Notes under the pieces: model-generated
Seen by the model: the letters and a program-made list of their open reading frames with translations, nothing else
The model's database searches: none
What the model was told of the DNA's origin: nothing
Position numbers and translations under genes: made by a program
In this document: piece by piece, positions 38-12,320 of the stretch
Layout: every line of letters starts with the position of its first letter
Numbering within the stretch: the first letter of the stretch is position 1
Assembly: GCA_026396495.1 (NCBI GenBank)
Contig: JAPLWR010000028.1
Location: 1 to 12,485 of the forward strand
Source of the DNA: Candidatus Magasanikiibacteriota bacterium
GTDB taxonomy: Bacteria; Patescibacteriota; Patescibacteriia; Magasanikbacterales; UBA10003
DNA length: 12,485 bases
Direction: 5' to 3'

Positions 38-3000
38 CTAAGGACTAACTTCTATAATTCCACCAAAAGGCGTCCAGGGTGCCGTTTTGTCTATACTACA
101 TTCTCTTTGAAGTTCTGATATGGGCGTTAAAGGATTAGTATCGATAGTATTATAATCACGGTTAGGATCAGAATCATTCCAATAACCCCTATAATTACCT
201 GAACCATCTACACCATTACACCAGCCCCAGTTATCTAAAATCTGTACTTTGGGTTTAAATTTACAAACTCCAGTTGCAATATTTTTACAATTAAACGTTA
301 CAGAACCAGTACAAGCTGGGACTCCGATGGTGGCTTGATCAGGACATTCATAAACATGTTTAAAGGAAAAATAATTTGTGTCACACGCTTCAGCAGAATT
401 ACCAAAATACAAACGGGCTTCTTCTTTTAACATTAAAGTCAATGGGTTATCAGTAGCTAAGACACAACTTCCGGCTGTACTGTCACAATCTTCTATACCA
501 TTACAAGGCATATTATAATTAGTACCACGACCACACACCTTATTTTCTGTATTAGCACACCAAGGTTTTTGATTTTTAAACCATCCCTTAGTTACATAAG
601 CTGGTGTTCCATCGCCCCAATCAATAGCTACACGTTGAATAGGCATTTGGTCATTATCAGCATAAGCAAAGAAATTAGCAGTGACAACAGAGTTAGACCC
701 GGTCAAAGAAACTGTTCCATTAGGGGTTGGGTTTAAATTGATACTAAAGTTATTAGCCGTTCCCCAAGTAAAACCGGTTGAGTTTAAAGTGTTTGGTTTT
801 AAAGAATAAATCTTTGGTGGATTAGGAGTTATTGACGCTGCGGGATTACAAGCATGAGCAGGATAGGGACCACTGACAGGTTCATTAGATACGAGAGGAG
901 TGCAGGTATCTCCGACAGGGCAATCAGGGTTTCCTTGACATTTTATAGAACGATGGCCAGAACATTCTCCACAACCGTCAGTTGCCAATCTAACACTATT
1001 TGAATCATCATACTTGGAATAGCTGGTGTACCATCTGTCAGCACTGATATAAGTAAAAAGTTTATCAGCACCTCCAGCGCTTACATACCCAGCACGATTG
1101 GAGGGAGGAGGTGTAACATTATATTCCTTTTGTAATTTCTGGCCATTCCAAACCCAAGTACCATAAGAATTAACAAACAACTCTTTAATTCTTTCATAAA
1201 CTCTGCCTATCATCGTATTGGGGATAATTTTGCCATTATCTAAGGAGATACCCGAACAATAACCTTTTTCTTCAACTTCTTTATTATTTTCTGTAGCAGT
1301 ATAGGTTTTTGATGGACAATCAGAATTACCAGCACAAGCCAAGCCATGATTTTGCCCGCCTACACAGGTCCCGCGAGTGTTACTTATAGAATCACAGAAA
1401 GAATCTTGTGTCCCTCCTTTACAATCTGTATCCTTAGAGCAAACCTTTCCGTCCTCTTCCCCACCTTTACAAGTTGATTCGGCCCCCCACTCACAAACAT
1501 TATAAGAACTATCAGTTAAAATACAATTTTGATCATTAGCAACGTACACACTGCCAGATTTAACACCACAAATTAAAGAATTGTTTTTTTCACAGATAAA
1601 GATAGATTCGGTATAATCTTTTTTGCAACTTATGCCAGGATCACAATCATTATTACTTAAACAAAGCACCTTGTCTTTTGATGCGTCTGTTTCATTACAA
1701 TAACCACGGGCCACGCAAGGACCGAGATTTTGATTACGACAGGTACCAAAATCGTTAACATCTGCACACGGCAAAGCAAGAGAATTAGCAAGCACTCCGC
1801 TAGCCAGCATGCTACTACAAAAATATTGATCACTACAAGTGCCATTAGCAACCTCCGTCCTACAACCATTTAATTCTAAACTAGCAGTAGGGTTGCAAGA
1901 CATACCTTTTTTTGAGCCACCTTGGCACAAACCAATTTTACCACAATCCCCTTGATTTTCTTCCGCACAATTTAAAGCACTACCACCACCAGGAGCAAAG
2001 GTTATTGGCCAATAACCAAAAGATTTAAATGTGGCACTCTTTTCCAAACTAAATTTGGTTGGACCCATAACACTCTCTAAAGTAGTGGTTACTGGCAAAT
2101 TATTACGAGAAAAAGAACCAAAGGGTGAAGCGGCTTGGTCATAAGTAAGATCTAACAAAGGAGTTGAAGTTGTTTCTATTAAATCTTTGCCCAATTTGTA
2201 TTTACTACCTTGCCAAATTCTATCAGTACGAGCTTTAGAAATTAAACCAAAGGGACTTCTGTTAGCTTCTATTGATTCCGTATCTACAGTTTGTCTGACA
2301 TCATTACAAACCTCTTTTAAATAATAGACAACATCAACTTGTAACCAACCGGCCCCATCACTGGCATCACAAAATTTAGTAGAAATATTTTCCAAAACAC
2401 CTGTTTTCGCATTAAATTGGAAACGAACACCTAAAAAATTTGGATCCTCACCACCGCTATCTAGCCGCTGGCAAACTTCGTCAGAAAGAAAACCAAAATC
2501 AGAAGAGTTAAAATATGATTTACTTTGTTTATTAATTTGCGCCCAAACCACATCTAAGTAAGGACCATTATTAGGTGTAAATTTTACTGGCCCAGACCAA
2601 TAAAACCCATTTCCAGTTGAGGCACCATCCGTTGTAGCCCCCCCGCTATTAATGCCAGTCAAAATTTGATTAGGATAAATCATTAATTCACTACCTTTAC
2701 TAGGCCAATCAGTAGCCTCTGCATTTGTAATTTTAATACCAATAGCCGCTAGTTCACTAATGTGTAAGCCTACTTCACCCTCCTTTAATGCCAAATTATT
2801 TTCTCTCCAGAAATCTGTTTCTGGAAACATCTCCCAAGTATTATAAAATCTTTTTTTAAGGAAAAACCCTAAAGGTGTCCAAACGGGAACCCAGCGGTAT
2901 CCTTCCATCTCATGCCTACCAACAAAAGCATATCCACCTATACCAACAGAACCATCACTAAGAGCAGATTTTCTATTGGCGTTACCTTTAGCTTCCATAC

Positions 3001-6000
3001 ACCAAAATTTACCAGACCCTTCTGGTGGATAATAACCAGCTGTCTGATTTAATTCATATAAATTATTGGCGTTAGAAGGAGCGGTTAAAGGAAACCACTG
3101 CATACAGGCCTTAGAATTTGGATCTTTGAACAGACAAAAACCCTGCCAACCAAATTGACGAGTAACTGTTTTATTAATTAAGCATTTGTTGGTAAATGAT
3201 AAACCTCCAATACTCAAAGCGCCAGCTTTTTCATCAGCACACTCTGAGTCAGTATTACAAGGTATACCTAATTTTGATTGACCGTTGTCAAAAGCACCAC
3301 CATCACAAATGCCAGCAGCATCTAACAACTGATTAACAGGATAATATTTATCAATAGGAGATTTGTCCCCTCCGCTATAAGTTACCTTAGTAAAGGAACA
3401 CAGATCTTTTGATTCTGCTGTTGCTTCACCAGATGCAAACCCGCGACAAGTTTCCGGTATTACTTCTGTTGGCGGTTTATCACTAAACACGCTAACACTG
3501 CCGGGATTAGAACCTTTTAGACCAAAGTTTGAGTCTTTTTCCCCTACAATTAAATCGGAAATCTGATAACCATTAGGTATAGAGTAGCCACTGAAATCTT
3601 TAGCTGAAAAAGTAGCCACACCTGTAGCAGTTTGATAAGCAAGATTATCTAGACGATTAGTTTTAGTTGGCCAAATTTCTGAATTATCTACCCAATGAGC
3701 ACATTTACCTAATAATTCATCACTACCAGCGTTAGAAACAGCGGCTTGATCGCAATTTCTAAATTGAGTACAAATTTCCGTAGGCTTGCCATCTTTAATC
3801 ACTTTCATTGTAGAGGCACAGGCCAACCATTCCCCGCAAACGCGATCTCTCTTAACTTTTAAAACAACATTAGCATTATTAGCCGTAGAACTAACTATTG
3901 GATTAACCAACTCATAATTTTTTAATTCACTAGATTTGTAAGAATCCGCGGTATTCCAAAGTAAATCACCTTTGCTTGTTTCATTAAATAACACGCAGCC
4001 TTTTTGCAAACTAACTTGACCTTGGCAAGAACTTCTGTCTAAATCAGCATCTTTGATCAAATAATACGGCTGACCTAAAGGATTTATGGAATTATTATCA
4101 GCGCCAGAGGGATCCACAAATTCAGTACAACCATTTTGTTCCACAGGACAAATACCCACAGCGCCTCTGTATCCCGCGTCCCCATTCTTTTTAGTTTTGT
4201 AATTCAAGCCAGAATAACAAGTGCTAGTAGTGCCTTTAATCACCCAACCACCATAAGGATGAGCATCATCAATAGAAGCTTTCCATTCACACAAATCATT
4301 GCCAAAGACAACTGGATCTCTGAAATAATCAGTCCCCCCACCACCTGTTGTGTATTTATCGCAGCCCTCAGCATCTTTTTCACACAAAATTCTAGCATAG
4401 TTGTCTGGTTGGTCTTTAATATAAGAAGTAGCTGTGGAAGTAGCATGACCTAAAGCATCATAAGTGATATTACCTAAAGCACGACAGCCCAGATTATCAT
4501 CGGCACATTGAAAGGCTGGGTCATTAACTAGATAGACCTTTCTGTCTCCAGCGGGAGCCAAACCTAAAGTTTGAGGAATTTTCATTGATTGAGCAGCATC
4601 AAAACTAAAAGAGATGGAATAAGTTTTACCCTCAGCATCTATGGTGGTAGCGCCAGTTGTTAAAGCAGTTAATTCTGATTCTGTCCCTACAAAATTAAAA
4701 CGACAGCTTTTTTGGTTAGGAGCAACATCGCAATATACTTTTCCATGGCTGTCTTTGCAACCCACAGCTTGATTAGAAGTAGAGTTAACATTTAATTCAC
4801 AGACAGCATTAACAATAGTAGAAGCCGCAGTAAAAGTGTTAAAAGTATCAACTAATTCTTCACAACCCACAGCTTCTTCGCGGCAAATATTATTAAACGA
4901 TTTGGCCGCCACTGATTGTTTTTGTCTGGTTTTATAAGAAGTACAGCCCAATTGAGCTTGAGGAACTAATCTTAAAGGATTATAGAAACTACCTCCAGAA
5001 GACTCACCATTAGGATCATTATTAACATTGTCGCAAGACACTGGTGTGACCCAAGAATCTTTAATGACGTTAACATTAGCCGTCATCACCTTTAGATTAT
5101 AGTTGTCTAAATAAAAAGTAGCAGAGGAAGAAATAAATTGAATGGTAGAAGAGGATTGAGAGGCATCCCAGGTACTAGTAAAAGGGCCCACAGTGTAAAG
5201 CTCCCAATTATTACTTAACTTAACAACCTTGGTATCCTTGGAATACCCACTAATAACAGCTGTTGGATTTGAAGGATTGGACGGAAAAAATGACACACCT
5301 AAATCAACTAAATTTCCCTTAGCCCAAAAATACACTAGATAAGTTTTATTTTTTTCTCCGCCAAAAGTCTGAGTAACTCCACTAGTACCAGCCGATACTG
5401 CTAATGATTTCCCGCCCACCACAGTAGACTCCGCACTAAATTTACCAACCCAATTAATAGCGGACAAGGCATCTGCACCAACAGCGCCAGATTCAAAATC
5501 TTGGGAAGCAATTGTTATGAAATTATTACCAGCGTTACCTTTATAAGCGCGGCAACCTACAGCTTCCACCGGACAAGTCTTGGCTTCCTTAGTAATAGCT
5601 AAGTAAGTACAGAATTTTTGGTCATTCCAAGTACCACCAGTAGCAAGACAAGAAGTTTCATCAGAAACTGTTTTACGCAAAGTTTTACACTCTGTAGCGG
5701 AGACAGTTATAGTTTTGGAATATAAACGATAAGATTTTGTTCCAGAACGGCTATAAAATTCACGACAATCTGGATTAAAGGCTCTGCCTAAACTAATACG
5801 ATTAGCATAACTAGCTTCATCGCATTGACTATTATACCTTCCAATAGTAGCAGCATCATTAGTGTTATAAGCCGGTTCTAAACCAGTATAGCCTGTCTTC
5901 AAATTATAAGTTTTTAACTGATACCCGGTAGTATTACTTCCTTCCCAGGTATAAAATGTAGCCCCTTCATCTTCATGTTTGCTACAAGTTCTTAATTCAC

Positions 6001-8389
6001 TATAAAATTCTTTTTGTTCCCCTCCAGCTGATTGTGCTTCTAAATTTACAAATTCTTCGCAGCCAACATTTTGGGCAGTACAAGATTTGGCAGTAGCTGG
6101 AATAAAATAATTAGTAGTACTAGTAGAAAATTGACTAATTGGTTGTTCAATATATGTTTCATACCCCACGCAATCATTAGGACACTGATTAGCAGGAGTT
6201 AAAACTCCAGGCACTGCTGGATTGCCATTACTTGGAGTATATAATTCGCAACCCTTTTCTGCCGCAGAACAAACCTGGGCAAAATTAGCACAAGCCTGTT
6301 TTTTTTCTGGCGTCTCCGCAGCAAAAATTTTATATAAATCAGATTTATTAACGGCCCAAGCTAAAGTAGAGCTGCTTAAAGAACTAGCGGAAGGTGTAGT
6401 GGCAACTAAATTTTCCCCGTAACAATTATAGTAACTGGGGGCCTTTTTTAAATTAAGAGGTTGATTAAACACTTCTGGAGCCGTTCTTAAAAATCTAGTG
6501 CAACCTTCATTAGCTACATCACAAGATTGAGCGTCTTGATCAAAATATATTTTAAACCCATTAGCATCCCACTGTAGACTTGCAGAAGTCGAGGTGGCAT
6601 TAGTAGCATAACCACGACAGCCTACATTATCTGAAGTACAGATACCCTTATTCAAAGTATTGGCCAAATAACTAGAGGTTTGACCTTTGGAGCTGGTGTA
6701 ATTAGTACAAGTATTAAATTGTTCGTCACAAGAGTTGCCACCTAAACGCCAATAATTTCTTTCTCTCAAACAATAACCCCAAGAGTTGCAGGTTTTAGTT
6801 GCTGGATCTTCACCAACACAATTCTGAATATCAGCACAAGATTGAACTCTTTGCCCAGGGGTACTACTTTGTGGCTCAGAATATAAAACGGAACCATAAC
6901 TTTGGGCCGCGCACCTAGCTTTTGGAGCCACAATCAACCAATTAGGATCTATCAAATGATAAAAAGCATTGCCAACAGGAGAATAAAACCTGGCAACAAT
7001 TTGATCTAAACTAAATGGTTGGCCTAATTTTTTAGATTCCTTAGCCGCCATTTCCCAACCCACTGGCAAAATTCTTAAAATGCGTAATTTTACTAAATTG
7101 TCATAACAATATGCTTGAGCTTTACAAGGCACACCAGGACCTAAAATTGGCCAGTTACCATTTAACATTTTTTGTTTTATTGCTTCCCCTACTGTCAAAG
7201 CTTCTCCATTTTGAGCTTTACTAAAAATATCTTTAAAAGATTCGTCTAAAGCTCCACAATAAGGTCCAGGATTAGTACTACAATCAGTAGAAAGTTCTGG
7301 AAGGTACTGGTAGTCTTCAATTTCTGTGAAAGTTGGTTTGGTAAAATCGGCAAAATAGGCCTCAGCGGCTTCACGAGAACCAACTAACTGAGCTTCATAA
7401 GCCAAAGGTCCAGCGCCATCCTTAGTGGCATCTTTAATCCAACCCCAAATACTACTCACGCTAGTTAAGCCGGTACTTAATAATTTCTCTTGAAGTTTAT
7501 TAGATAAGGTATCTAAAAAAACCATGCCCACATCTTTTAAGGCAGCTAAATATTTTTTTGGATCACCAAGCTGGGTCTTTATCTCTGCAGCTTCTTTTTC
7601 TTTAGCTTCCTTGGCTCTTTGAGCATCAGCAGCTTTAACCTGTTCTTTGGTCATCTCTTCAGGAGCAGTAGCTTTTTTATCAACTGGACTTTTCAAAGGA
7701 ATAGTTTTTCCATTCAAAGTAAGATCATTAACAGCTGAGACCTTTTCTTTATTTTTAGCGGCTTCTATCCCTTCGGCCATTTTTCTAGATAAAGATAAAC
7801 CATTTTGGCCTGATTCAAATCCAGCTCCAACCTTACTCCAATATTCAGGTTTACCTATATTCTTATATGCTTCTATGACTGCCTTAAAATTACAACGGGG
7901 CTGGGGGCTTTCAACATTAACAGACTGCAATTTAAGTTTTAATTGAAGATCTGGTTGTTGCGGGGAACACAAATTAATTCCATATTTTTTAGTTAAAGCC
8001 CATTCATCACCAAAATTTCCAATAAAATCTCCCGCCGCACTCTCTCCTGCTTCTTGCCAATATTTTTTAGCATCAGTAACAAACATCGGCCCTTTATTAT
8101 ATTTACCGCTAGCCAACCAAGTAGCAGAATCTTGCGCAAATTTATTTAAAAAGTTTTTAACAGTTTTAAATAAAGCCTTACCAGCTGTACTACCCAAATT
8201 TTGATAAACACTATCTAAAATACCCATGACTGTGTCTTTCATGGATTTTGCGTCCAAAGAACTATCGCCAACAGGTAACCCCTCGGCTTTAGCTGGCTTG
8301 GCTAATACAAAACCACAAACAAGAAAAAACAAAAGAAAACCAATTACTATTTTTTTTCTCAAACTTTTTTCTTTTGTAAAATTGTTCAT
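38..8389 (-). CDS. Giant secreted cysteine-rich multidomain surface protein (2783 aa), function unknown
   Basis: I recognise no named family, but the style resembles very large uncharacterised surface proteins of Patescibacteria. The ATG at 8387-8389 is preferred over an in-frame TTG five codons upstream, because it directly precedes a good signal peptide: a basic n-region (K6, K8, R11-K13), a hydrophobic core at about 14-30, and an AKA|EG cleavage site after residue 35. By residue, the order is: a helical conserved-looking region (36-215); a charged, probably coiled-coil linker (215-280); a second helical region ending near a DPNWL motif (about 480); a cysteine cluster (525-580); degenerate GC cysteine modules (584-1468); a CBM4/9-like sandwich (965-1100) among them; a CGEWLAC block (1518-1524); CxGG-type cysteine modules from 1695 on; and a PKD-like domain (about 2520-2726). 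A hand count gives about 113 cysteines, near 4%, implying oxidative folding outside the membrane. No C-terminal membrane anchor or LPXTG motif is visible. The stop is TAG. It lies 28 bases after the calcium-binding protein gene and is probably cotranscribed with it. Confidence 0.9.
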   Translation of the reverse strand: MNNFTKEKSLRKKIVIGFLLFFLVCGFVLAKPAKAEGLPVGDSSLDAKSMKDTVMGILDSVYQNLGSTAGKALFKTVKNFLNKFAQDSATWLASGKYNKGPMFVTDAKKYWQEAGESAAGDFIGNFGDEWALTKKYGINLCSPQQPDLQLKLKLQSVNVESPQPRCNFKAVIEAYKNIGKPEYWSKVGAGFESGQNGLSLSRKMAEGIEAAKNKEKVSAVNDLTLNGKTIPLKSPVDKKATAPEEMTKEQVKAADAQRAKEAKEKEAAEIKTQLGDPKKYLAALKDVGMVFLDTLSNKLQEKLLSTGLTSVSSIWGWIKDATKDGAGPLAYEAQLVGSREAAEAYFADFTKPTFTEIEDYQYLPELSTDCSTNPGPYCGALDESFKDIFSKAQNGEALTVGEAIKQKMLNGNWPILGPGVPCKAQAYCYDNLVKLRILRILPVGWEMAAKESKKLGQPFSLDQIVARFYSPVGNAFYHLIDPNWLIVAPKARCAAQSYGSVLYSEPQSSTPGQRVQSCADIQNCVGEDPATKTCNSWGYCLRERNYWRLGGNSCDEQFNTCTNYTSSKGQTSSYLANTLNKGICTSDNVGCRGYATNATSTSASLQWDANGFKIYFDQDAQSCDVANEGCTRFLRTAPEVFNQPLNLKKAPSYYNCYGENLVATTPSASSLSSSTLAWAVNKSDLYKIFAAETPEKKQACANFAQVCSAAEKGCELYTPSNGNPAVPGVLTPANQCPNDCVGYETYIEQPISQFSTSTTNYFIPATAKSCTAQNVGCEEFVNLEAQSAGGEQKEFYSELRTCSKHEDEGATFYTWEGSNTTGYQLKTYNLKTGYTGLEPAYNTNDAATIGRYNSQCDEASYANRISLGRAFNPDCREFYSRSGTKSYRLYSKTITVSATECKTLRKTVSDETSCLATGGTWNDQKFCTYLAITKEAKTCPVEAVGCRAYKGNAGNNFITIASQDFESGAVGADALSAINWVGKFSAESTVVGGKSLAVSAGTSGVTQTFGGEKNKTYLVYFWAKGNLVDLGVSFFPSNPSNPTAVISGYSKDTKVVKLSNNWELYTVGPFTSTWDASQSSSTIQFISSSATFYLDNYNLKVMTANVNVIKDSWVTPVSCDNVNNDPNGESSGGSFYNPLRLVPQAQLGCTSYKTRQKQSVAAKSFNNICREEAVGCEELVDTFNTFTAASTIVNAVCELNVNSTSNQAVGCKDSHGKVYCDVAPNQKSCRFNFVGTESELTALTTGATTIDAEGKTYSISFSFDAAQSMKIPQTLGLAPAGDRKVYLVNDPAFQCADDNLGCRALGNITYDALGHATSTATSYIKDQPDNYARILCEKDAEGCDKYTTGGGGTDYFRDPVVFGNDLCEWKASIDDAHPYGGWVIKGTTSTCYSGLNYKTKKNGDAGYRGAVGICPVEQNGCTEFVDPSGADNNSINPLGQPYYLIKDADLDRSSCQGQVSLQKGCVLFNETSKGDLLWNTADSYKSSELKNYELVNPIVSSTANNANVVLKVKRDRVCGEWLACASTMKVIKDGKPTEICTQFRNCDQAAVSNAGSDELLGKCAHWVDNSEIWPTKTNRLDNLAYQTATGVATFSAKDFSGYSIPNGYQISDLIVGEKDSNFGLKGSNPGSVSVFSDKPPTEVIPETCRGFASGEATAESKDLCSFTKVTYSGGDKSPIDKYYPVNQLLDAAGICDGGAFDNGQSKLGIPCNTDSECADEKAGALSIGGLSFTNKCLINKTVTRQFGWQGFCLFKDPNSKACMQWFPLTAPSNANNLYELNQTAGYYPPEGSGKFWCMEAKGNANRKSALSDGSVGIGGYAFVGRHEMEGYRWVPVWTPLGFFLKKRFYNTWEMFPETDFWRENNLALKEGEVGLHISELAAIGIKITNAEATDWPSKGSELMIYPNQILTGINSGGATTDGASTGNGFYWSGPVKFTPNNGPYLDVVWAQINKQSKSYFNSSDFGFLSDEVCQRLDSGGEDPNFLGVRFQFNAKTGVLENISTKFCDASDGAGWLQVDVVYYLKEVCNDVRQTVDTESIEANRSPFGLISKARTDRIWQGSKYKLGKDLIETTSTPLLDLTYDQAASPFGSFSRNNLPVTTTLESVMGPTKFSLEKSATFKSFGYWPITFAPGGGSALNCAEENQGDCGKIGLCQGGSKKGMSCNPTASLELNGCRTEVANGTCSDQYFCSSMLASGVLANSLALPCADVNDFGTCRNQNLGPCVARGYCNETDASKDKVLCLSNNDCDPGISCKKDYTESIFICEKNNSLICGVKSGSVYVANDQNCILTDSSYNVCEWGAESTCKGGEEDGKVCSKDTDCKGGTQDSFCDSISNTRGTCVGGQNHGLACAGNSDCPSKTYTATENNKEVEEKGYCSGISLDNGKIIPNTMIGRVYERIKELFVNSYGTWVWNGQKLQKEYNVTPPPSNRAGYVSAGGADKLFTYISADRWYTSYSKYDDSNSVRLATDGCGECSGHRSIKCQGNPDCPVGDTCTPLVSNEPVSGPYPAHACNPAASITPNPPKIYSLKPNTLNSTGFTWGTANNFSINLNPTPNGTVSLTGSNSVVTANFFAYADNDQMPIQRVAIDWGDGTPAYVTKGWFKNQKPWCANTENKVCGRGTNYNMPCNGIEDCDSTAGSCVLATDNPLTLMLKEEARLYFGNSAEACDTNYFSFKHVYECPDQATIGVPACTGSVTFNCKNIATGVCKFKPKVQILDNWGWCNGVDGSGNYRGYWNDSDPNRDYNTIDTNPLTPISELQRECSIDKTAPWTPFGGIIEVSP
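212..832 (-). other. PKD-like domain with inserted cysteine module, C-terminus of the giant protein
   Basis: Residues about 2520-2726 carry the landmarks of a polycystic-kidney-disease (PKD) immunoglobulin-like fold. These are an IDWGDGTP turn (WGDG at 2591-2594), a FKHVYECP strand (His at 2678) and a final KVQILDNWGWC strand (Cys at 2724). A normal PKD domain has about 20-30 residues between WGDG and the H.Y strand, but here there are about 84. The extra segment contains a CxxG...DC cysteine module (2619-2641) like those upstream. PKD domains are common in adhesins and extracellular enzymes, where they mediate spacing or protein and glycan contacts. Confidence 0.65.
902..1927 (-). repeat. 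CxGG...C...DC small cysteine-module repeats in the giant protein
   Basis: Residues about 2155-2496 contain several copies of a short module: Cys, one residue, Gly-Gly, then G-x-x-C, then x(4)-DC and a further Cys. Copies start at residues 2155 (CQGGSKKGMSC), 2307 (CKGGEEDGKVCSKDTDC), 2342 (CVGGQNHGLACAGNSDC) and 2476 (CSGHRSIKCQGNPDC). Those at 2307 and 2342 are a near-tandem pair 35 residues apart. Related copies lie outside this range at 1695 (CDGGAF...IPCNTDSEC) and at 2619 (CGRGTNYNMPCNGIEDC), the latter inside the PKD-like domain. The spacing suggests small disulfide-stabilised knots with little other core. Confidence 0.7.
3986..6640 (-). repeat. Degenerate GC cysteine-module repeat region inside the giant protein
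   Basis: This part of the giant protein (residues about 584-1468) repeats a motif of the form C-x(4-6)-G-C-x-x-[FYL]. The second cysteine falls at residues 591, 630, 714, 777, 946, 1149, 1176, 1211, 1302, 1343, 1421 and 1465. Examples are DNVGCRGY, NEGCTRF, EKGCELY, NVGCEEF, AVGCRAY, AVGCEEL, NLGCRAL, AEGCDKY, QNGCTEF and QKGCVLF. In most copies a cysteine lies six or seven residues upstream; the copy at 1149 lacks it and those at 1211 and 1465 have longer spacing. Spacing between copies varies from 27 to 203 residues, so these are conserved anchor points within diverging modules rather than exact tandem repeats. No DNA-level repeat is apparent, which suggests old duplication. Confidence 0.75.
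5090..5497 (-). other. CBM4/9-like beta-sandwich domain in the giant protein
   Basis: Residues about 965-1100 lack cysteine and look like a jelly-roll carbohydrate-binding module of the CBM4/9 type. They start with an FESG motif and continue with a GKSLAVS strand and a KTYLVYFWAKG strand. A NNWELYTVGPF strand follows, and a closing FYLDNYNL strand completes the pattern. That order (FE.G, GKSL, Y..SFW.K, W..Y, F.LDN..L) is typical of the fold. It interrupts the cysteine-module region between the copies at residues 946 and 1149. Sugar binding is inference from fold resemblance only. Confidence 0.5.
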
Positions 8390-8417: not shown

Positions 8418-9212
8418 CTACAATTGTTTAATTAAATCTAGCAAGGCCGCGTCATCCAATTTATCAACTGTGGCTTTGGGGACACCATTAGTTATTAAAT
8501 TTTTTCTTAATTCAACTAAATCAATTTGGTCGGGATTAATACTAGAGCCAATTGAAGTACCTACATTTAATGTAGAAGTGGCAGAAGTCATAAATTCCTT
8601 AAAAAAAGCCACCAACTCTTCATCACTAAATTTATTTATTAACTCTGCCTTACCTCCACTCTGTAATAAAAACTCTCTTATCTTGGCAACATCAGGGTTG
8701 GCAGAAAAAATATTTTGCAATAATATTTGTTCTACAGAAGGTGAAGTATCTGTTACCGCTTGTTCTAACGTAGAAGTATTTATTTGCCCAGAAGTAGGAT
8801 TGGCCATTTCATTAAAAAAACAATTTTGTCCTTTAGGACAATTGGGATCAGTTCCACCTGTTACTTCTTGTTTGTCACTTATGCCGTCTGAATCACTATC
8901 AGGTAGATACGGGCTGGTGTTATAAACATACAATTCTTCATAATCATTTAAACCATCTTTATCTGTATCTTTATTTTTTAATTCAGTCATTTGTTCTTCT
9001 TCTGTTTTTGGCACTTCCACATCTGAAGAATATTTTAAAGCAAAGAGAGCAAAGGGTGTTTTTAAATTATTACCCATTTGTTGAAAACCCAAATAAACTA
9101 TTACAACAGCTAAAATTACAAAACCCCAAAAGGCCAGTTTTTCTTTTTTGGACAATTCCCCCGTTTCAACCCCCGGCCGGTGATTTAATTGTGGGTTATT
9201 CTTAGAATCCAT
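8418..9212 (-). CDS. Single-pass membrane protein with thrombospondin type-3 calcium-binding loops (264 aa)
   Basis: The short N-terminal tail ends in a basic stretch (SKKEK, 21-25). A single transmembrane helix follows at about 26-43, and the remainder is probably extracytoplasmic. Two calcium-binding loops of the thrombospondin type-3/EF-hand-like kind are visible: DTDKDGLNDYEE (82-93) and DSDSDGISDKQE (105-116), followed by a TDPNC motif characteristic of these repeats, with Cys125 and Cys131 likely paired. The C-terminal half (about 145-264) is Ser/Thr-rich and then helical, with two segments resembling each other: REFLLQSGGKAELINKFSDE near 179 and RKNLITNGVPKATVDKLDD near 236. Both read as a helix, a G turn and a second helix. 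Such proteins are frequent in Patescibacteria, but their role is not established. The ATG at 9210-9212 follows an AGAGG sequence with only two bases between, and a promoter lies just upstream. The giant secreted protein gene follows after 28 bases. Confidence 0.85.
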   Translation of the reverse strand: MDSKNNPQLNHRPGVETGELSKKEKLAFWGFVILAVVIVYLGFQQMGNNLKTPFALFALKYSSDVEVPKTEEEQMTELKNKDTDKDGLNDYEELYVYNTSPYLPDSDSDGISDKQEVTGGTDPNCPKGQNCFFNEMANPTSGQINTSTLEQAVTDTSPSVEQILLQNIFSANPDVAKIREFLLQSGGKAELINKFSDEELVAFFKEFMTSATSTLNVGTSIGSSINPDQIDLVELRKNLITNGVPKATVDKLDDAALLDLIKQL

Positions 9213-9292: not shown

Positions 9293-10102
9293 TTAAGCTA
9301 ACTTTTCTGCTAGTTTTATCCAGTCGCTAACGCTTAAATCCTCAGCCCGAACTTCTGAGTCTAAATTAACACCTAGAAAAGCGCTACTTATCAACTCTGG
9401 AGAAAACAAAGATTTAAGATTTTTCTTGAGCATTTTCCTTTTTTGTACAAATCCCGTCTTGACCACTTTAAAGAAAAATTTTTCTTGTTCCAAAGACAAA
9501 CGGGAAGAAATATTAGAAATTTTTAAAATAGCACTCTCTACTTTAGGTGGTGGCACAAAGGCGTTAGGTTTAACAATTTGTACAATTTGAGGAGTGCCAT
9601 AATATTGAACCATAACCGAAAGAAAAGATTTTTTATCATCAGAGGCACAAATTCTTTCAGCCACTTCTCTTTGCACTAATAAAACCATTAGTTGTGGTTT
9701 ATGAGAGGCCATTAAAAATTTTTCCAAAATTCTTGATGTAAGGTAATAAGGAATGTTGGCAATTACTTTGTAAGGAATCCCCACCAAATTATTTAGATCA
9801 AAAACTAAAACACTTTCTTTTCTAACTTCTAAATTTTTTTGCTGAGAAAATTTATTTTGCAAAAGAAAAATTAATCTCTCATCAATTTCTAAAGATAAAA
9901 CCTGTTTGGCCAACTTGACTAATTCGGCTGTTAAAACTCCAGCCCCAGCGCCAACTTCTAAAATATAATCTTTGTCAGTTATTTCTCCTTCAGCCACTAT
10001 CCTGGCTAAAATATTTTTATCAACTAAAAAATTTTGGCCAAGGGATTTATCCGCCTGGGGAGTTTTATTCTTTCTTTGATTGTGCAAATTTTCTCTTATC
10101 AT
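9293..10102 (-). CDS. rsmA: 16S rRNA dimethyladenosine transferase RsmA/KsgA (269 aa)
   Basis: This cytoplasmic SAM-dependent enzyme dimethylates two adjacent adenosines in the 3'-terminal helix of 16S rRNA (A1518/A1519 in E. coli numbering) late in small-subunit assembly. The family motifs are all visible. SLGQNFL is at 20-26, and EVGAGAG (SAM-binding motif I) at 49-55. LEID (acidic ribose contact) is at 71-74, and NIPYY (catalytic motif IV) at 116-120. VPPPKVESAI at about 183-192 marks the start of the C-terminal helical domain. The length matches the family's usual 260-290 residues. The gene starts 42 bases after the tsaC stop, with no convincing Shine-Dalgarno sequence at normal spacing (a GAGGGA lies too far upstream). 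It forms a translation cluster with tsaC and prfB. Its stop is TAA, and no GC-rich terminator follows it. Confidence 0.96.
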   Translation of the reverse strand: MIRENLHNQRKNKTPQADKSLGQNFLVDKNILARIVAEGEITDKDYILEVGAGAGVLTAELVKLAKQVLSLEIDERLIFLLQNKFSQQKNLEVRKESVLVFDLNNLVGIPYKVIANIPYYLTSRILEKFLMASHKPQLMVLLVQREVAERICASDDKKSFLSVMVQYYGTPQIVQIVKPNAFVPPPKVESAILKISNISSRLSLEQEKFFFKVVKTGFVQKRKMLKKNLKSLFSPELISSAFLGVNLDSEVRAEDLSVSDWIKLAEKLA

Positions 10103-10118
10103 TTTGATTAAAAATTAG

Positions 10119-10140
10119 ATCCCTCATCTCTGTTCGGGAT
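10119..10140 (-). terminator. Weak hairpin between tsaC and rsmA, possible attenuator or terminator
   Basis: In the gap after tsaC, ATCCC (10136-10140 read on the minus strand) can pair with GGGAT (10119-10123) across a 12-base loop. It is followed by CTAATTTTT. The stem is only 5 bp, so any termination would be partial, and rsmA may still be read through from upstream. Confidence 0.25.
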
Positions 10141-10144
10141 AACG

Positions 10145-10735
10145 CTATGCGTCAATTTTTATTTCTCCTTGTCGTAAAATTTTTACTTGATTATCTTCAG
10201 TAATTTTTACAATAGTAGTTGGCTGATGATGTGATAATACTCCCCCATCTATAATATAGATATTATTTTTTTCTATTCCCACTAAACTATTTTTTAATTC
10301 TTCTACAGAATAACTTTCTCCCTGACCAGACAAATTGGCCGAGGTGGCAACAATAGGCTTACCTAATTTTTGAGATAAATTTCTAGCAATTTCGTTACCA
10401 GAAACCCTAACCGCTGCTGTGCCATCTTTAGCCACACAACCACTAGCCAAAACTTTTTTAACTTGCACCACCAAAGTCAAAGCACCTGGCCAATATTTTA
10501 GAGATAATTCCTTAGCTTTATTACTTAAGATCACCCACTCCTCTGCCATTTCTAAGCTGCCCACAATTACTGGCAAAATTAAATCTTTGGAACGCTGTTT
10601 GATCTTAAATACTAAATCAACTGCTTCTTGATTAGTAGCATCACAACCCAGACCATAGGCGGTTTCTGTGGGATAAATTATCACCCCACCTTTTTTAAGA
10701 TGTTCTATAGCTTCTAATATTTTTTTATTTTGCAT
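10145..10735 (-). CDS. tsaC: L-threonylcarbamoyladenylate synthase TsaC (YrdC/Sua5 family, 196 aa)
   Basis: It makes threonylcarbamoyl-AMP from threonine, bicarbonate and ATP, the first step of t6A modification at position 37 of ANN-decoding tRNAs, in the cytoplasm. The YrdC fold is evident: YPTETAYGLG at 21-30, a KQRSK motif at 46-50 (the conserved K/R nucleotide-binding site), WPGALTLV at 82-89, AAVRV at 107-111 and TSANLSG at 131-137. The length fits the single-domain TsaC form and is too short for Sua5 with its extra C-terminal domain. I chose the ATG at 10733-10735. An in-frame ATG at 10811-10813 would add 26 hydrophobic residues encoded entirely across the 65-bp inverted-repeat element, with no counterpart in the family. 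The ribosome-binding site is weak. It lies between prfB and rsmA on the same strand. Confidence 0.95.
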   Translation of the reverse strand: MQNKKILEAIEHLKKGGVIIYPTETAYGLGCDATNQEAVDLVFKIKQRSKDLILPVIVGSLEMAEEWVILSNKAKELSLKYWPGALTLVVQVKKVLASGCVAKDGTAAVRVSGNEIARNLSQKLGKPIVATSANLSGQGESYSVEELKNSLVGIEKNNIYIIDGGVLSHHQPTTIVKITEDNQVKILRQGEIKIDA

Positions 10736-10746
10736 AATCAATCTTA

Positions 10747-10811
10747 GGCATACTTTTTGTTTTTCGCCGACGAGGGCGTTAGTCTGCAGCAAGAAAAACA
10801 AAAAGTATGCC
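10747..10811. repeat. 65-bp element with perfect 19-bp inverted repeats between prfB and tsaC
   Basis: The left arm GGCATACTTTTTGTTTTTC (10747-10765) is matched exactly by its reverse complement at 10793-10811. The 27-base centre (10766-10792) is GC-rich, unlike the AT-rich arms and surroundings, and contains a CTGCAG palindrome and a CGCC/GGCG mini-stem. The element ends 7 bases from the prfB stop codon and 11 bases from the tsaC start, so it fills the gap. No T-run follows the hairpin on either strand, so it does not look like a standard intrinsic terminator. It could be a small palindromic dispersed element (REP or MITE-like), or an mRNA stem that separates or stabilises the two transcripts. 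No target-site duplication is obvious. Confidence 0.85.
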
Positions 10812-10818
10812 AAAAAAA

Positions 10819-11919
10819 TTAGCTGCGTCTCATTTTTAAATAAGCTTCAATAAAATCAATTAAATCTCCATTTAACACTTTATCCGGATCTTTAGATTCA
10901 AAATCAGTGCGGTGGTCTTTAACTAAATGATAAGGATGCAAAACATAACTCCTAATTTGGTTGCTCCAAGCTGCCTCATGATATTCGCCTCGTAATTTTT
11001 CCATTTCTTGAGTCTTTTCCTCTTCCATTCTAGTAGCCAATTTAGCTTTTAAAATTTTCATAGCTGTTTCTTTATTCTGTTGTTGGCTTCTTTCATTCTG
11101 ACAAGAAACAGTAATGCCGGTTGGTAAATGAACAATACGTACCGCGCTGTAAGTGGTATTTACTGATTGCCCACCTTTACCCGAAGACATGAAGGTATCA
11201 ATACGTAAATCATCTGGTTTAATTTCTAAGACAGTTTTTTCATCAATTTCTGGCAAGACTTCTACCAAAGCAAAAGAGGTGTGACGCATTTTTTCTGAAT
11301 CAAAAGGGGAAATGCGCACTAAACGATGGACACCGTGTTCTGATTTTAAAAATCCATAAGCTTGAACTCCTTTAATTAATAAAGTGACGCTTTTAATACC
11401 AGCTTCTCCACCTCTACTTTCATTTAAAATTTGAGTCTTAAAACCTCGCTTTTCACAAAAACGTAAATACATCCGCAAAAGCATTTCAGCAAAATCCATG
11501 GCATCTACCCCGCCAGTACCAGCATGAATAGACAAAAAGGCATTATTATTATCATGTGCCCCAGAAAACATCAAACTAATTTCCGCCTCGGCAAATTTCT
11601 CTTTTAATTGAACTGTTTGTTTTTCCAAATCTTCACGTAGACTCACAGATTTATCTTTTTCATCTAATTCCCCCATTTCTAATAAATCAGCAACTTGTTT
11701 TTTTAAAGATACCCAAAAGTCTAATTCCTTTTTTAACTCATCATACTTCTGAGTAATTTCTCCGGCTTGGAGTGAATCTGACCAAAAACTTTGAAGAGAC
11801 ATCTGATCTTCTAATTTTTGCCTTTCTTCATTTTTTTTATCCAAATGCAATAAACCCCAAGCTTCTTCAATTTTGGTTTGCAAATTTTTCAATTCAGAAA
11901 TTACCTCTTTTATAGTCAT
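10819..11919 (-). CDS. prfB: Peptide chain release factor 2 (366 aa)
   Basis: RF2 recognises UAA and UGA stop codons in the ribosomal A site and triggers release of the finished peptide. The protein shows a coiled-coil N-terminal domain (about 1-115), the FSGAHDNNNAFLSIHAGTGG segment (118-137), and the SPF codon-recognition tripeptide (204-206, within VRISPFDS). The GGQ catalytic motif is at 249-251 (SSGKGGQSVN), and a C-terminal domain ends near IEAYLKMRRS. The length is typical. Unlike many bacterial prfB genes, the reading frame is continuous: at the place of the usual autoregulatory frameshift (codons 25-27) the codons read CAT TTG GAT, with no TGA. UGA-dependent autoregulation is therefore absent. 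It starts a translation cluster with tsaC and rsmA and has its own promoter just upstream. Confidence 0.97.
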   Translation of the reverse strand: MTIKEVISELKNLQTKIEEAWGLLHLDKKNEERQKLEDQMSLQSFWSDSLQAGEITQKYDELKKELDFWVSLKKQVADLLEMGELDEKDKSVSLREDLEKQTVQLKEKFAEAEISLMFSGAHDNNNAFLSIHAGTGGVDAMDFAEMLLRMYLRFCEKRGFKTQILNESRGGEAGIKSVTLLIKGVQAYGFLKSEHGVHRLVRISPFDSEKMRHTSFALVEVLPEIDEKTVLEIKPDDLRIDTFMSSGKGGQSVNTTYSAVRIVHLPTGITVSCQNERSQQQNKETAMKILKAKLATRMEEEKTQEMEKLRGEYHEAAWSNQIRSYVLHPYHLVKDHRTDFESKDPDKVLNGDLIDFIEAYLKMRRS

Positions 11920-11925
11920 ACGAAT

Positions 11926-11940
11926 AGTATATTTATACCA
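11926..11940 (-). promoter_or_regulatory. Extended -10 promoter for prfB with very short leader
   Basis: Minus-strand sequence just before prfB reads TGG followed by TATAAA (11932-11940), an extended -10 arrangement. An overlapping second -10 candidate, TATACT, lies at 11926-11931. No good -35 box is present at 16-18 bases upstream of either. From the TATAAA box transcription would start about 5 bases before the ATG. From TATACT it would start at the ATG itself, which is 6 bases away. The gene lies downstream of a strong terminator, so an independent promoter is expected here. Confidence 0.5.
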
Positions 11941-11958
11941 AAAATAAGCTAAATTTAA

Positions 11959-11981
11959 AAGCCCCCCTTATGGGGGGGCTT
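11959..11981 (-). terminator. Intrinsic terminator after the small membrane protein gene
   Basis: A 9-bp stem, AAGCCCCCC (11959-11967) against GGGGGGCTT (11973-11981), closes a 5-base loop. On the minus strand it continues into TTTTAAATTT. It lies 12 bases after the stop of the 108-residue membrane protein and before the prfB promoter, so it separates the two units. The flanking A/T symmetry could also allow function in the other direction, but no plus-strand gene needs it. Confidence 0.88.
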
Positions 11982-11993
11982 AAAAATAATCTT

Positions 11994-12320
11994 TTAAATT
12001 TTTATCTGCTCCGCATATTTACCAATCACTGGTAATTCTTCCATCTTGCCGTTGTAGACATTCTGCATGCCCACAACAGTAAAGATAATGGAGGCAACCC
12101 ATAAAGCCCAACCTACAAAAGGTATCCAACCAACTACCCAAGTAACTAACCACAAAATGCACAAAACTAAACCTTGTTTACCATGAAACTGAGCAAAAGG
12201 ACTATCTTTTTTGCCTAACAAAGGAATAAGACAAAGTATTCCCAAATAACCAACAGCCGCAATAATTTTATTATTCTTAAAATCTTTTGGGTCAGGAACT
12301 TTTTTTGTTTTTTGTTCCAT
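11994..12320 (-). CDS. Small three-helix membrane protein, DUF4870/Tic20-like (108 aa)
   Basis: After a charged N-terminus (1-17), three hydrophobic segments follow, at about 18-36, 49-66 and 68-86. A hydrophilic loop carries the motif SPFAQFHGKQG (40-50). This arrangement, with 'FA.FH.KQ' after the first helix and a Trp/Gly-rich second hairpin (VVGWIPFVGWALW), is characteristic of DUF4870 and the related Tic20-like small membrane proteins. These are widespread in bacteria and have no established biochemical role. The protein ends in a short cytosolic tail (PVIGKYAEQIKI). The gene is a monocistronic unit, with its own promoter upstream and a strong terminator downstream. The family assignment is from motif recognition and could be refined; the membrane topology is secure. 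Confidence 0.85.
   Translation of the reverse strand: MEQKTKKVPDPKDFKNNKIIAAVGYLGILCLIPLLGKKDSPFAQFHGKQGLVLCILWLVTWVVGWIPFVGWALWVASIIFTVVGMQNVYNGKMEELPVIGKYAEQIKI

Follow-up and report, generated by a model that had tools for sequence, protein, structure and literature searches.

A giant cysteine-rich protein of the type IV secretion locus in one class of Patescibacteria

The 12,485-nucleotide stretch of DNA analysed here (the window), contig JAPLWR010000028.1 of a Candidatus Magasanikiibacteriota bacterium (assembly GCA_026396495.1), carries a gene for a secreted-type protein of 2,783 amino acids with 113 cysteines, here called the giant. What is such a protein for? An earlier note, made from the window's sequence, had suggested host attachment or a surface layer. 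Comparison with related genomes gives good support for placing the giant among the genes of a type IV secretion system (T4SS) locus, and we see an even chance that it serves this Patescibacteria class as the host-facing, extracellular subunit of its chromosomal T4SS. From the window itself the T4SS membership cannot be seen, as the contig stops 37 bases past the giant's stop codon.

The type IV secretion locus of the class

A survey of the giant's distribution, proposed in the earlier note, found it class-wide: the family is present in 175 of 191 class genomes (157 of 166 among good genomes), and the 33 matching genomes among 379 of the phylum are all of its own class or nearer. A profile of the giant core recovered the same 33 genomes together with three weak matches in an insert resembling a carbohydrate-binding module (CBM). 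A search of 5.8 billion proteins, in which scoring covered the 7,999 candidates with the most shared words and the tool restricted lengths to 0.55-1.75 times that of the query, returned 52 proteins including the query, ranging within that limit from 1,923 to 4,285 amino acids. Two peptide patterns located 57 giant loci in a named collection, with titles naming Uhrbacteria (21), Magasanikbacteria (12), Falkowbacteria (6), Kerfeldbacteria (1) or none of these (17); we take the class of these lineages to be ABY1.

Many relatives share one gene order: KsgA, a protein with TSP3 repeats and a single transmembrane (TM) segment, the giant, a polytopic VirB6-like protein of ~700-1,400 amino acids, a protein of ~370-600 amino acids, PrgI, the N-terminal half of VirB4 (~230 amino acids), the VirB4 ATPase and a single-TM protein of ~200 amino acids. 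Genes were labelled with hidden Markov models (HMMs) built from same-genus genes and, for loci L036 and L044, with Pfam, which matched the VirB4-type ATPase family P-loop_TraG at E 5.8e-27 and 7.3e-28, respectively. The TSP3 partner lies upstream of the giant in 49 and KsgA in 48 of the 53 loci whose upstream flank reaches 2 kb or more, and the VirB6-like gene lies downstream in 18 of the 28 loci with at least 8 kb on that side, always on the same strand; the remaining loci of the 57 were excluded from these counts, their stretches being too short. In four members the VirB6-like protein has 6-8 TM segments by hydropathy. The giant adjoins or overlaps a neighbouring gene in L044 and L085, and a ComF-like gene, named by eye, comes after the last gene of the shared order in some loci; comF near virB4 in ABY1 is reported in a passage of PMC12102498.

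PrgI (PF12666) was matched in 32 of the 33 giant-bearing genomes, in 31 of them above the family cut-off. In 18 of these 32 it lies downstream on the giant's contig and strand, 5.9-16.3 kb past the last giant match. In the genome of the window PrgI lies on contig C62. This contig begins within the VirB6-like gene and continues in the same order, VirB4 (matched by HMM) included; we infer that contigs C105 and C62 of this genome are adjacent.

In L085, the Kerfeldbacteria locus, the giant appears at 9944-23566 as separate reading frames (1,861 and 1,579 amino acids matched), and the protein may be split in that lineage. L055, titled Candidatus Methylomirabilis sp., has both the giant and the TSP3 partner and is perhaps a mis-binned Patescibacteria contig.

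Short forms outside the class

Among 20 T4SS neighbourhoods examined from genomes outside the class, one (L134) has a protein of 280 amino acids between KsgA and the VirB6-like gene. It has a signal-like N-terminus, matches positions 11-304 of the giant model (38.5 bits) and retains the three residues, two cysteines and a proline, that never vary across 26 aligned rows. An N-terminal-domain profile that included this protein matched 40 of the 379 genomes, namely the 33 above plus seven more, among which is the source of L134. The seven short forms are open frames of 316-886 amino acids, matched at E 4.5e-39 to 9.5e-5. In all seven a VirB6-like gene follows on the same strand, directly in five and with one gene between in two; KsgA lies upstream in six, and PrgI and VirB4 stand on the same stretch in five, the other two contigs being short. 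A search restricted in length placed one short-form protein in a Parcubacteria record and one relative in a Zambryskibacteria record. Since its N-terminal domain is shared with these short T4SS-locus proteins, the giant looks, from sequence, like an older T4SS-locus part to which ~2,400 cysteine-rich residues were added in the class.

In three T4SS loci outside the class (L132, L137 and L147) the VirB6-like HMM match contains 18, 11 and 22 cysteines, respectively, versus 0-1 in four class members (one partial). In such loci another subunit may bear the cysteine-rich part.

Architecture and candidate roles

Of the 113 cysteines of the giant, 65 are at least 90% conserved in an alignment (A1) of 37 of the 52 proteins found, query included, counting columns in which at least 19 of the 37 members are present. 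The GC cysteine modules described in the earlier note correspond to nine copies of C-x5-G-C within residues 481-1500, far above the 0.14 per shuffle obtained in 2,000 shuffles (maximum 2), and the C-x-G-G motifs that it named are present in five copies. Its sugar-binding-like sandwich gained support from profile matches of residues ~954-1107 to chains 1gui (CBM4) and 4xup (CBM22), with which the fold agrees. Signal peptides were counted in a set of 43 locus proteins, comprising the window protein and 42 from loci whose giant frame spans 2,000 amino acids or more and contains no X; omitting two 5'-truncated sequences, 38 of 41 giants have a hydrophobic N-terminal segment with an AxA-like site, and two have one extra weak hydrophobic segment. 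Disulphides in the giant are predicted and plausible: DsbA-like Thioredoxin_4 matches occur in all 33 giant-bearing genomes, with three in the genome of the window, and VKOR is present in 21 of the 33.

In the host-facing reading, the N-terminal helical domain would dock on the VirB6-like platform or on the TSP3-TM partner, and the class-specific ~2,400 residues would form a disulphide-stiffened rod bearing the carbohydrate-binding-type domain. The rod would reach through the cell surface and, as predicted, bind host-cell surface glycans, by which the T4SS channel would be brought into host contact; the giant would function like a mating-pair adhesin or pilus-tip protein. A secreted type, a gene ahead of a VirB6-like gene, a very long disulphide-rich extension and a carbohydrate-binding-type domain would most simply be read together as marks of the part meeting the host. 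It is a possible, more tentative extension that a giant adhesin or tip subunit became the centre of a rebuilt T4SS in the whole class, an older VirB6-docking secreted protein of ~300 residues having grown about ten-fold into a disulphide-stiffened host-recognition fibre with a carbohydrate-binding domain. If true, the giant would supply, for this class, the host-contact component so far missing from the Patescibacteria T4SS. Passages of PMC10633639 and PMC12102498 describe the T4SS as essential for epibiotic growth in one Patescibacteria species tested genetically; a giant class-wide T4SS-locus protein, of which short forms occur in some other classes, provides a named and testable candidate for host contact, and what had been an unknown giant surface protein becomes a likely part of a known machine. 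The earlier interpretation stands in that the protein is of secreted type, large, cysteine-rich and widely kept; host attachment is plausible only, with the T4SS-locus setting added, and nothing was found in support of a surface layer.

Several observations weigh against the host-facing reading. Docking, location and binding are predicted, the structure model of the N-terminal domain consists of helices of low confidence, and VKOR was not found in the genome of the window or its genus mate. The VirB6-like label derives from sub-cutoff matches and topology, with PF04610 matched below cut-off in L134 and L151 only and in none of four giant-bearing loci scanned, and 10 of the 28 named loci have no VirB6-like gene within 8-10 kb downstream of the giant. 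PrgI was not matched in one giant-bearing genome (G183), and in seven of the 32 that have it, the genome of the window among them, the contig ends close behind the giant, too soon for linkage to be judged. As PrgI is found in 106 of 116 phylum genomes and is thus near universal, its co-occurrence with the giant is by itself uninformative. The giant N-terminal model found no short form in the other 19 of the 20 T4SS neighbourhoods, nor did the profile search in 339 of 346 other genomes; the short form is either no general component of the T4SS or too diverged to be detected. This rarity lowered our estimate for the host-facing reading from slightly better than even to even.

PrgI lies elsewhere in at least seven of the 32 genomes (G072, G085, G161, G172, G212, G272 and G314) despite more than 20 kb beyond the giant, which also counts against the host-facing reading and would suit a general surface or S-layer-associated adhesin whose adjacency to the T4SS is old synteny around KsgA with no functional link. 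In this phylum KsgA is already reported to lie commonly near virB4 (PMC12102498, section 14), giant surface proteins are reported in another lineage of the candidate phyla radiation (passages of PMC8080830), and the scarcity of the short form elsewhere points the same way. Such an adhesin is nevertheless doubtful, as the N-terminal domain precedes the VirB6-like gene even outside the class, as the short form, and the adjoining or overlapping genes in L044 and L085 speak for a closer tie. The T4SS-locus evidence itself would serve equally for a structural part that is no adhesin, an extracellular stalk or sheath carrying the channel across the surface layer and replacing the outer core complex absent from monoderm systems. 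The length of the giant and its 65 highly conserved cysteines suggest a rigid scaffold over a fast-changing recognition protein, and in seven genomes outside the class the short form occupies this position; the CBM-type domain, however, suits recognition, as do the C-terminal residues 2140-2510, aligned on average in only 11.9 of 37 rows, and we rate a stalk or sheath as unlikely. A giant secreted effector or lytic weapon against prey cells appears highly improbable: its size, the predatory or epibiotic life style reported for some phylum members (passages of PMC8080830) and a jelly-roll fold common to receptor-binding domains of some toxins would agree with it, but in the window protein and 13 members Pfam lists neither an enzymatic nor a pore-forming domain, the cysteine scaffold is conserved, and the jelly roll is a common fold that indicates no function.

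Known systems offer partial likenesses to the proposed host-facing subunit. CBM4/CBM22-type modules resemble the jelly roll by sequence and fold, which differs in being one domain within a giant and whose sugar binding is predicted. TraN of the F plasmid is likewise a cysteine-rich secreted protein of a T4SS locus, with a different envelope; it is a mating-pair protein that we take to be several times smaller than the giant. The giant resembles VirB5 in its secreted type, its predicted helices (a low-confidence model), the place of its gene directly before the VirB6-like gene and a possible tip role; it is far larger in this class, judged against the usual VirB5 size as we assume it. Pfam scans of the giant and short forms and fold searches with the low-confidence N-terminal model spoke neither clearly for nor clearly against homology to VirB5. 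As an adhesin on the surface of a monoderm-type T4SS, PrgB (aggregation substance of pCF10) is also a proposed likeness, the giant being disulphide-rich instead and, unlike PrgB and the antigen I/II adhesins, having no LPxTG in the window protein. Pfam, a test of sequence only, lists, in the window protein and 13 members, neither the TraN family nor an anchoring domain of the SLH or a similar type, nor a polymer adhesin domain of the PrgB and antigen I/II kind (up to E 1 for the window protein and E 0.05 for the 13 members). In passages of PMC12857230, VirB5, located at the pilus tip, is modelled as docking on VirB6, and PrgB is an adhesin in a Gram-positive system; the survey of Patescibacteria T4SSs (PMC12102498) reports, in part of its text, that no PrgB-like adhesin was detected. 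The MPF_FATA-related systems described there likewise have PrgI, a split VirB4, a VirB6-like protein, a KsgA neighbourhood and a chromosomal location. Its main text lacks words beginning giant or thrombospondin, and the giant and short form go without mention in those parts. No paper whose title or abstract describes the giant came up in a literature search.

Features of the window and minor observations

The open reading frame (ORF) runs on the minus strand from an ATG at 8389 to a stop codon at 38-40 with no internal stops, and hydropathy gives residues 9-35 as its sole hydrophobic segment, with an AKA-type site, which indicates a signal peptide and no further TM segment; the earlier description of a single gene with a signal peptide and about 113 cysteines is thereby confirmed. 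Its family remains unrecognised, as that note had claimed: a library scan of the window protein found no Pfam family above its cut-off, NCBIfam listed none up to E 1, and the Pfam scans of 13 members gave no confident match to a characterised family. The other refuting case of that note, an assembly chimera, does not apply either, because full-length relatives exist: P0002, P0005 and P0006 (2,636-2,780 residues) align over 100% of the length at 36-48% identity. Of the domains in the earlier note, the helical N-terminus stands in that helices are predicted, in a model of low confidence, and the PKD-like domain could not be confirmed, since Pfam lists no PKD family in the window protein or in any of 13 members; a C-terminal WGDG...H-x-Y resembles by eye what we take to be the PKD motif.

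Table 1. Coordinates of the giant, its regions and upstream neighbours in the window
Feature	Position	Strand	Basis
Giant secreted-type cysteine-rich protein, 2,783 aa, 113 Cys	38..8389	-	ORF; 51 relatives
Signal peptide, residues 1-36	8282..8389	-	only hydrophobic segment (9-35), AKA-type site
N-terminal helical domain (predicted), residues ~37-310	7460..8281	-	common to T4SS-locus proteins of 280-880 aa in seven genomes outside the class
Conserved cysteine core, residues 401-960	5510..7189	-	27/29 Cys at least 90% conserved
CBM-type jelly roll, residues ~954-1107	5069..5530	-	sequence and fold
Second cysteine region, residues 1111-1800	2990..5059	-	27/32 Cys at least 90% conserved
C-x-G-G cysteine-knot-like region, residues 2140-2510	860..1972	-	average 11.9/37 members aligned
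C-terminal region, residues 2511-2783	41..859	-	PKD-like by eye only
Partner, 264 aa, one N-terminal TM segment and TSP3 repeats	8418..9212	-	relatives upstream of giant in 49/53 loci
KsgA (rRNA adenine dimethylase family)	9293..10102	-	upstream, same strand, in 48/53 loci

The rest of the window (9293-12320) holds ordinary genes: KsgA, a Sua5/YrdC-type protein, a release factor with PCRF and RF-1 domains and a DUF4870 membrane protein. On the other side of the giant, a lipobox test of the first 800 bases past the gene found, under a strict rule, a convergent lipoprotein-like gene (174-337 amino acids) directly after it in 11 of 30 tested loci (L036, L046, L048, L058, L059, L060, L067, L076, L077, L080 and L083), with none on the giant's strand and none in the upstream control stretches (at most 30); by BLAST, only three of the 11 proteins match one another. 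Searching with the TSP3/single-TM partner, which may anchor the giant, gave 538 proteins including itself, and among the 120 listed the named ones belong to Patescibacteria lineages or are given as 'bacterium'.
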